Shown one piece after another: positions 18,308 through 54,473 of a stretch of DNA of 64,000 bases. The translations under genes and the position numbers were made by a program. The notes below the pieces were generated by a model that worked only from the letters and a program-made list of their open reading frames with translations, was not told where the DNA came from and did not search any database. The first letter of the stretch is position 1, and every line of letters begins with the position of its first letter. The DNA comes from Microbacterium sp. SA39 (GTDB lineage Bacteria > Actinomycetota > Actinomycetes > Actinomycetales > Microbacteriaceae): NCBI RefSeq assembly GCF_000967865.1, contig NZ_JXRU01000027.1, positions 1 through 64,000 of the forward strand. The letters run 5' to 3'.

Positions 18308-19165
18308 GTGAGTTCATCGGTCGCCCTCGAGTCCGAGGACGAACTCGTAGCCAACGCGGTGCGCGAGCTCGCCCGGCGCACGCGCTTCCCCGTCGCCTTC
18401 GGCGGCCTCATCGCCGAGGGCGTCGTCAGTGTCACGAGCATCGTCGGAAATCGCACCAGAGCACTCGACGGCCTCCGCGTCCGCCCCGAGCGAGGACTCG
18501 GAGGGCGGGCCATGATGGAACTCCGCCCTCGGATGACGAGCGATTACGGCTCCTCTCGGCAGATCACCCACGACTATGACGTGTTCGTGCTGGGAGAGGG
18601 CCTGCGGACCCTCCTGGCGCTGCCCATCGTGGTACAGGGGCGACCGCGCGGAGTCCTCTACGCCGGTGCCTGGGACGAGGAGCAGGTGGGCGGCGTGACG
18701 ACGGCCCCGGCGATGCAGGTCGCGCAGTCGGTGGCCGACGAGCTGCGCATCCGAGACGAGGTCGAGCGACGGCTTCGCTCTTCGACCCCTGGGGCGGACG
18801 CCGTACCGGCACCGCAGCGCGAGGAGCTGCGTGAGAGCTTCGCCGAACTGCGCAGCATCGCCGCGGACATCGACGATGCCGCACTGCGGGCCCGGATCGC
18901 TCAGGTCGAGCGCCGCCTCGTCGGTCTCGCCGGCGACGCTGTCCCCGCGGCGACCGGACCCGTGCCCACCATTCACCTGTCACCGCGCGAGACGGACGTG
19001 CTCGCGTGCGCTGCTCTCGGGTCCACCAACGCGGAGATCGCCGCGCAACTGGGGCTCCGCGAGGGCACGGTCAAGGCGTACCTCGGCACCGCGATGTCCA
19101 AGCTGGATGCCTCCACACGTCATTCCGCCGTCACCCGCGCCCGCCGGGCGGGCCTGCTGCCCTGA
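18308..19165 (+). CDS. GAF-LuxR transcriptional regulator, RamA-like
   Basis: The 285 aa protein (GTG start after GTAGGTAG) has a GAF-like sensor domain in its first half and a LuxR helix-turn-helix at the C-terminus (LSPRETDVLACAALGSTNAE, IAAQLGLREGTVKAYLGTAM). Size and architecture match RamA of Corynebacterium glutamicum, a LuxR-type activator of acetate-metabolism genes. It is transcribed divergently from the DUF485-symporter operon with 108 nt between starts, so control of acetate uptake is a reasonable inference. No receiver domain is present. Confidence 0.82.
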   Translation: MSSSVALESEDELVANAVRELARRTRFPVAFGGLIAEGVVSVTSIVGNRTRALDGLRVRPERGLGGRAMMELRPRMTSDYGSSRQITHDYDVFVLGEGLRTLLALPIVVQGRPRGVLYAGAWDEEQVGGVTTAPAMQVAQSVADELRIRDEVERRLRSSTPGADAVPAPQREELRESFAELRSIAADIDDAALRARIAQVERRLVGLAGDAVPAATGPVPTIHLSPRETDVLACAALGSTNAEIAAQLGLREGTVKAYLGTAMSKLDASTRHSAVTRARRAGLLP

Positions 19166-19225
19166 GTGCCCAGGCCGTGCCCAGCGGCATCGACTACCAT
19201 CGGAGGCGGTCGGCGAACTCCGACC

Positions 19226-19269
19226 CCGGACGAGGTAGACCAGTACCCGGTGAGCGAAAAGACTGGTCC
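19226..19269 (+). promoter_or_regulatory. Guanidine-III (ykkC-III) riboswitch
   Basis: CCGGACGAGG, then a 7 nt arm GACCAGT, TACCCGGTGAG, then AAAAG and ACTGGTC reproduce the guanidine-III aptamer: the arm pairs with its complement while CCGG and CCGG-containing segments form the pseudoknot. The ribosome-binding site follows at once: GGTCC-GGAA-GGACC (19265-19278) can form a hairpin that hides it. The GGTC half of that hairpin is the same strand used in the aptamer helix, so guanidine binding should free the site and turn on translation of the exporter. Confidence 0.85.
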
Positions 19270-19282
19270 GGAAGGACCGATC

Positions 19283-19609
19283 ATGTCGTGGATCGTGCTC
19301 ATCATCTCCGGAGTCCTCGAAGCCATCTGGGCCACGGCGCTCGGAAAGTCCGAAGGGCTCACCAAGCTCTGGCCGAGTGTGATCTTCTTCGTCGGTCTTG
19401 GGCTGTCGATGTTCGGCCTTGCCTTCGCGATGCGCGATATCGCCACGGGAACGGCTTATGCGGTCTGGGTCGGGATCGGGGCATCTCTCACAGTCATCTG
19501 GGCCATGATCACCGGTGACACCGAGGTGTCATGGCTGCGAATCCTGCTGCTGATGGGCCTGGTCGGATGCATCGTCGGCCTCAAACTCATCGACACGGGA
19601 CACGAATAG
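19283..19609 (+). CDS. gdx: SMR-family guanidinium exporter Gdx (SugE type)
   Basis: The 108 aa protein has four membrane helices and the small-multidrug-resistance fold. The first helix carries the key glutamate (SGVLEAIWATALGKSEGLTK), and the A.G.A.W.G...ALK-like pattern ATGTAYAVWVGIGAS is in helix 3. The LEAIWA..LGKS signature favours the Gdx/SugE branch, which exports guanidinium in exchange for protons, over the broad-spectrum EmrE branch. The upstream guanidine-III riboswitch supports this. The ATG at 19283 follows GGAAGGA. No partner SMR subunit is present. Confidence 0.9.
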   Translation: MSWIVLIISGVLEAIWATALGKSEGLTKLWPSVIFFVGLGLSMFGLAFAMRDIATGTAYAVWVGIGASLTVIWAMITGDTEVSWLRILLLMGLVGCIVGLKLIDTGHE

Positions 19610-19667
19610 ACGACATGTTCCGCATTTCTTCTTGCCCACGATATGCGCCGAGGGTAATGTCCGTCCC

Positions 19668-20030
19668 ATGGCTAGAAGAATTGTTCATCAACTCGTAGAC
19701 GATATCGATGGCAGCGTGCTGGAGGTCGGCGAGGGAGAGACTGTGCATTTCTCTCTCAACGGCACGTCGTATGAGATCGATCTGAATGCGGCGCACGTGG
19801 ACGAATTGCGGCAGGCGTTCGAGCCCTACATCGCGGCGGGGCGCCGTGCCGGGTCGTCGACCTCTTCCCGTTCGTCGGGCTCGGCACGCTCGTCCGCTCA
19901 GCGGAAGCGCCCGGCGCGGAACCCCGAGGTCGCGTCCATCCGCACGTGGGCGAACGAGAACGGCTATTCGCTCTCGGAGCGCGGCCGCATTCCCGGCCCC
20001 GTGGTCGAGGCGTACAACGCCGCACATTGA
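19668..20030 (+). CDS. lsr2: Lsr2-family nucleoid-associated protein
   Basis: The 120 aa protein starts with the Lsr2 dimerisation domain (MARRIVHQLVDDIDGSVLEV, then VHFSLNGTSYEIDLN) and ends with the DNA-binding domain (IRTWANENGYSLSERGRIPG) containing the RGRIP AT-hook-like loop. A Ser/Arg-rich linker joins them. Lsr2 coats AT-rich DNA and silences foreign genes, and is restricted to actinobacteria. The upstream GGGTAAT lies close to the ATG, which suggests a short leader. Confidence 0.95.
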   Translation: MARRIVHQLVDDIDGSVLEVGEGETVHFSLNGTSYEIDLNAAHVDELRQAFEPYIAAGRRAGSSTSSRSSGSARSSAQRKRPARNPEVASIRTWANENGYSLSERGRIPGPVVEAYNAAH

Positions 20031-54241: not shown

Positions 54242-54473
54242 CGTTCCTCTTGAAAGTCTGAGGGGGTCCGGGTTGGCCCCGACCATCGCGCGGAGCGACG
54301 ATCGCCGCAATGCGCGGCCAGGTTCGATGTTAACCAGCCAGGCTGAGAAATACCCAGGTGCCACGGTTCATGTCATACTGATCCCGACCCAAAGACGGGT
54401 CATGGCGGTTCATTCCGCCACTTCCATCACTACGGATCGTCCGGCACGTACCTGCCGGTGAGGAGAAACAACA

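Follow-up and report, generated by a model that had tools for sequence, protein, structure and literature searches.

The gdx gene of Microbacterium sp. SA39 probably carries, at the 5' end of its mRNA, a guanidine-III riboswitch acting as a translational ON switch, probably under kinetic control, a reading to which we assign a probability of about 0.85. The element lies in the window, by which we mean the whole 64,000-nt stretch of DNA analysed here. During transcription, aptamer stem P2 would form first. Upon binding of guanidinium, P2 and a CCGG/CCGG pseudoknot would hold positions 19262-19268, the Shine-Dalgarno (SD) segment at 19270-19276 would be free, and Gdx would be made. Without guanidinium, once about 19285-19288 has been transcribed, 19261-19269 would switch to pairing with 19274-19282, thereby locking the SD in a GNRA-capped hairpin and keeping translation low. 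We infer the ON direction from the exporter role of the gene product, from folding calculations of which one measure is contrary, and from the prediction published for the class. A translational ON switch had been proposed in the first-pass annotation of this DNA, and is backed by the 30 of 30 hairpins kept in close relatives, by the swap test and by most folding measures, with the direction deduced as above. The features concerned are the following.

18308-19165, + strand: upstream GAF-LuxR regulator gene, RamA-like, outside the switch (PF00196, PF13185)
19166-19184, + strand: tandem CTGNNCAG-like boxes 11 nt apart (GTGCCCAG GCC GTGCCCAG), directly after the stop codon of the upstream gene; candidate operator/promoter element
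19195-19200, + strand: -10-like TANNNT (TACCAT), from positional enrichment in relatives
19204-19271, + strand: guanidine-III aptamer (RF01763 match)
19209-19224, + strand: 5' stem-loop of the Rfam model, GTCGG 19209-19213 with CCGAC 19220-19224 (RF01763 match, pairs checked)
19226-19250, + strand: pseudoknot strands CCGG 19226-19229 and CCGG 19247-19250 (complementarity checked)
19238-19268, + strand: aptamer stem P2, GACCAGT 19238-19244 with ACTGGTC 19262-19268, seven Watson-Crick pairs (sequence, RF01763)
19261-19282, + strand: alternative SD hairpin, GGTCC 19265-19269 with GGACC 19274-19278, GGAA loop 19270-19273, plus outer pairs (sequence, folding)
19270-19276, + strand: SD-like GGAAGGA, 6 nt ahead of the start codon (sequence)
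19283-19609, + strand: gdx/sugE-type SMR gene, 108 aa, ATG at 19283 (PF00893, 71.6 bits; Gdx-Clo 6wk5, E 6.8e-18)

An ordinary guanidine-III aptamer

A profile search with RF01763 (guanidine-III, ykkC-III) matched 19204-19271 on the + strand with 49.4 bits, above the gathering threshold of 36 (E 3.1e-7 in the window), and the alignment covers the complete model (1-67 of 67). It is the only match reported in the 3.86-Mb assembly at E up to 0.001. The first-pass annotation, which had recognized a ykkC-III core and suggested this very search, was right on both the core and the pairing of GACCAGT with ACTGGTC. In the alignment, the CCGGACGAGG and GUACCCGGU core is identical to the Rfam consensus and includes the ACGA that is described as perfectly conserved in the class in the accessible part of PMC2864571. 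The pseudoknot as such is known from guanidine-III RNAs and is named in PMC12186494, as far as its accessible text goes.

All elements named by the first-pass annotation are present on the + strand and in place. Its interval began at the CCGG strand at 19226, omitting the 5' stem (19209-19213/19220-19224), and it overlooked the pseudoknot, the outer pairs of the SD hairpin and the promoter-like elements. Its "only 44 nt of aptamer" is nothing special: the Rfam match spans 68 nt, the stem-and-pseudoknot unit measures 43 nt (19226-19268), and guanidine-III cores commonly run to about 40 nt. Folded alone, the 68-nt aptamer piece has ordinary stability (z -0.83, 38 of 200 dinucleotide shuffles as good) and a non-native minimum-energy fold without P2, which may be expected because pseudoknot and ligand were left out. 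On sequence grounds, 19204-19271 is a guanidine-III riboswitch and an ordinary good member of its class, from which we found no difference in the aptamer, and it is predicted to bind guanidinium. The guanidine-II (mini-ykkC) riboswitch that precedes gdx in E. coli follows a common logic, in which guanidinium frees the gdx SD (PMC13064478, accessible part), whereas its aptamer differs in being made of two small hairpins with ACGA/ACGG loops.

A Gdx-type exporter gene downstream

Eleven nucleotides separate the aptamer match from the start codon (ATG) of an SMR gene, and an emrE/SMR-like target is likewise described for the class in the portion of Weinberg 2010 (PMC2864571) that was available. 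The 108-aa product aligns without gaps to Gdx-Clo across positions 1-102. Like Gdx-Clo, a member of the Gdx/SugE SMR subtype, it carries E13, W16, S42, Y59 and W62, the residues described for that protein in the accessible part of PMC7695847, where W16 is said to separate the Gdx from the Qac subtype. Together with PF00893, this alignment bears out the guanidinium exporter gene announced by the first-pass annotation. Against the SugE equivalog model (NCBIfam NF008512), the protein scores 81.7 bits, below the cut-off of 126, so that it is not filed under that equivalog. Its nearest named relative is found in Microbacterium sp. K24 (95% identity). Just downstream of gdx lies an Lsr2 gene (19671-20030, + strand; PF11774, PF23359).

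An alternative hairpin predicted to sequester the Shine-Dalgarno segment

P2 and the SD hairpin are mutually exclusive helices at this locus. The hairpin core consists of five pairs, and the segment common to both helices is 19265-19268; the hairpin GGTCC-GGAA-GGACC, said at first pass to hide the ribosome-binding site and to share a strand with the aptamer helix, is indeed there. We take GGAAGGA at 19270-19276 to be the anti-SD match. Moving outward, the hairpin is extended by U64-G79, A62-U81 and G61-C82 (last two digits of 192xx) with one mismatch (63x80), and nearly the entire 3' strand of P2 is therefore consumed by it. For the 25-nt piece 19261-19285, the folding energy is -11.5 kcal/mol, against an average of -5.28 (sd 2.31) among dinucleotide shuffles, of which 2 of 200 are as good (z -2.69), and the 97-nt leader has ordinary stability (z -1.16, 24 of 200 dinucleotide shuffles as good).

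Growing transcripts were folded stepwise without pseudoknot. The probability of P2 is 0.98-1.0 from 19267 to 19276, 0.42 at 19285 and 0.05 at 19288; over the stretch from 19276 to 19288, that of the SD hairpin climbs from 0.02 to 0.95. This order of events leaves guanidinium a brief interval in which it could determine what becomes of the RNA. Moreover, the ligand-free fold favours the SD-hairpin state over the aptamer state by 7-13 kcal/mol, a figure obtained with the pseudoknot bases reserved and with pseudoknot and ligand energies excluded; such a preference suggests kinetic rather than equilibrium control.

Conservation and apparent covariation of the SD hairpin

Among the matches listed, the 30 loci that resemble the window most closely (L090-L119, a set in which L090 is the window) all retain a 5-bp stem and a GNRA loop: 24 have TCC-GAAA-GGACC, two TCC-GGAA, two TCC-GAGA, one TCC-GGGA and one TTC-GAAA. 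In L098, a C to T change in the shared strand is matched by a G to A change in the 5' strand of P2, and a U-G pair is kept in the hairpin. Conservation of the hairpin near the window thus appears strong. Compared with the class, the SD hairpin that serves as expression platform at this locus is unusually perfect and GNRA-capped, and this capped form is a clade-level detail.

Distant loci change both sides, as in L208 (GGCTCTC-GAA-GGAGAGCC), and the arrangement is often retained, with GACTGGCTCTC/GGAGAGCC in L208, GACTGGCC/GGTCAGTC in L002, GACTGGCTCC/GGAGC in L189 and GACTGCCATC/GGTGGC in L153. Two loci (L076, L077) from genus g91, which belongs to another family of the same taxonomic class, have GACGACGCACC/GGTGCCGTC with a longer loop.

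The set of leaders compared was drawn from 199 loci (L001-L199). The regular expression lost 14 of them (13 without core, one too far off), 11 more were excluded for want of an SMR start, and five were skipped for tail length (L080, L138, L144, L151, L168), three of these being CBU_0592 loci with a misplaced start. This left 169 loci with 134 distinct tails, of which 131 tails of up to 50 nt entered the pairing count. The 3' strand of P2 makes at least four pairs downstream in 122 of these 131 tails, compared with 113.2 (sd 2.8, max 118) for swapped and 92.3 (sd 4.0, max 99) for shuffled controls (40 runs each). Little or no such hairpin is present in nine of the 131 (L051, L052, L058, L074, L123, L131, L156, L158, L162).

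In the swap test, the tails from the 3' strand of P2 to the start codon of the 134 distinct leaders had their downstream parts exchanged between species. Matched leaders gave a duplex energy of -6.90 against -6.05 (sd 0.14) when swapped, and a hairpin energy of -8.38 against -7.00 (sd 0.16), with 0 of 5000 swaps as good in either case; this full-set signal is inflated because the leaders are related. Inside the window's genus (49 tails), 0 of 5000 swaps were as good on either energy; outside it (85 tails), 65 of 5000 swaps did as well as the matched leaders on duplex energy and 0 of 5000 on hairpin energy. When the set was thinned to a single leader from each of 51 genera (labels assigned by hand from the family and phylum surveys; 300 swaps in each of 200 draws), the median p was 0.06 (worst 0.30) for duplex and 0.003 (worst 0.13) for hairpin energy, and with one leader per distinct P2 8-mer (21) the duplex gave a median p of 0.11 (worst 0.55). 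Duplex energy gives a weak one-per-genus signal, hairpin energy a moderate one. Co-evolution of the SD hairpin across genera thus seems real, on evidence that is moderate. A translational ON riboswitch calls for SD pairing that excludes the aptamer stem and is kept in relatives; both were found, the one-per-genus test being the weaker part.

Distribution

The guanidine-III element is widespread, not rare. Matches to RF01763 (E up to 1e-3) occur in at least 235 of 366 genomes of the window's genus, in 75 of 150 genomes sampled from its family and in 51 of 396 sampled from its phylum; the family and phylum samples are even draws rather than all species, and stricter filters could lose weak matches. 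In 77 of 80 named gdx loci, a regular-expression search located a guanidine-III-like core no more than 150 nt from the start. The loci sampled comprised 30 from each of two match listings and 20 more from the window's genus.

Mode of action and alternative explanations

According to the accessible part of a review (PMC12186494), guanidine-III RNAs are predicted to expose the SD upon ligand binding, so that the mechanism put forward at first pass is the published expectation for the class. The same text reports that guanidine-III protects mRNA from RNase E. The main effect here could accordingly be on mRNA stability, the ligand-bound 5' pseudoknot blocking RNase E scanning and SD exposure being secondary; the -10-like element, which suggests an mRNA start just ahead of the aptamer, would suit such a role as well. 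We consider this unlikely as the principal explanation, since it accounts neither for the better fit of the SD segment to the 3' strand of its own aptamer than to those of swapped leaders, nor for the hairpins kept in all 30 close relatives. RNase E protection and SD release can act together. An intrinsic terminator formed by the alternative hairpin, which is GC-rich, would instead imply transcriptional control. A scan of 19100-19700 detected no terminator on the + strand, where no T run follows the hairpin, and one terminator-like site on the - strand (0.3 expected). We have rejected this reading, the least credible of all, and translational control is the better one given the empty + strand.

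The bound aptamer might also hinder the 30S subunit and turn gdx off, or the SD hairpin might be a constitutive translation or stability hairpin with no switching at all. A single base separates the end of P2 (19268) from the beginning of the SD-like stretch (19270); in one fold (19195-19330), moreover, the mean unpaired probability of 19270-19276 is 0.39 with P2 forced and 0.57 in the free ensemble, contrary to the other measures. Two things produce that difference: bases of the GGAA loop are scored as unpaired, and the freed SD finds other partners downstream. The local cost of opening AAGGA, by comparison, is 1.0 to 4.6 kcal/mol lower in the aptamer state at each of the ten 3' ends tested, induction is what would be expected for an exporter of the ligand, and the class is described, in the part of PMC12186494 referred to above, as freeing the SD on binding. 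An OFF switch, or none, therefore strikes us as very improbable. The translational ON switch would offer, in a compact guanidine-III element, clean and testable exclusive helices together with many natural variants, useful for understanding how this class moves the SD. A literature search (titles and abstract openings) found no paper on this gdx leader.

Promoter-like elements and the upstream regulator gene

A TANNNT is located at -35 to -21 relative to the core in 98 of 134 loci; in ten other 15-nt stretches, all lying farther upstream, it is present in 1.4 loci on average. In the window, the tandem boxes lie 10 nt upstream of this -10-like element, and in relatives about 60 nt before the core. 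Of the 134 loci, 37 (from 16 genera) have a TGNNCA-N5-TGNNCA whose start lies at -70 to -50 relative to the core (mononucleotide shuffles of the stretch, mean 0.0), and in 35 of these 37 the start falls at -62 to -57. At the family level, at least one CTGNNCAG is found in -66 to -36 in 56 of 108 loci, compared with 1 of 108 in a control stretch. From their sequence and position, the tandem CTGNNCAG boxes are possibly an operator or a -35 substitute. A genome-wide regulon was sought and none showed at the stringency of STGNNCAGNNNSTGNNCAG, which has three matches in the window's own genome against four for its reversed control; by eye, the other two STGNNCAGNNNSTGNNCAG matches lack a similar promoter context.

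The upstream GAF-LuxR regulator scores 164.4 bits against NF041673, below the cut-off of 500. Among 202 loci longer than 1.4 kb, 44 were found to have a RamA-like gene: L001, L090-L119, L280 (the window again) and, from the 80 named gdx loci, 12 more. The 202 include some loci retrieved solely through their Gdx protein, as well as two that matched the pattern by chance. The strict GGTCC-GNRA-GGACC hairpin occurs in 38 of the 202 loci, all among the 44 with the RamA-like gene, and the other six of the 44 have variant hairpins. The RamA-like gene as regulator of the tandem boxes is not supported, the boxes being present also in genera in which no such gene turned up next to the switch. Rather tentatively, and with the odds somewhat against it, the gdx leader of Microbacteriaceae could be read as combining a locus-specific transcription factor, acting on the tandem CTGNNCAG boxes (11 bp spacing, just upstream of the -10), with a guanidine-III aptamer below them whose platform would be a deeply conserved helix between the 3' strand and the SD segment, GNRA-capped in one Microbacterium clade.

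Other guanidine-III contexts

Guanidine-III elements also lie directly before genes for CBU_0592-family small membrane proteins (NF047864) at L061, L125, L138, L144, L150, L151 and L161/G502. Among the 27 sampled family genomes with a CBU_0592-family protein, there are seven, from five genera, in which it immediately follows a guanidine-III match (G373, G420, G422, G456, G462, G490, G502; coordinates compared by eye), the match in G502 scoring 29.5 bits, below gathering. A literature search found no paper pairing CBU_0592 with a riboswitch. By its genomic position, the CBU_0592-family protein is a candidate guanidine-related membrane protein, and the tandem promoter box and the guanidine-III elements before this family point to little-explored guanidine biology in actinobacteria.

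Two further contexts were seen: a PF06695 small multidrug export protein (L067 scanned; L084 and L165 alike by eye) and an arginase-family protein (PF00491; L062 scanned, L072 alike by eye). Elsewhere in the window, an msiK RNA motif (RF01747) is found at 54416-54471 on the + strand, with 59.1 bits.
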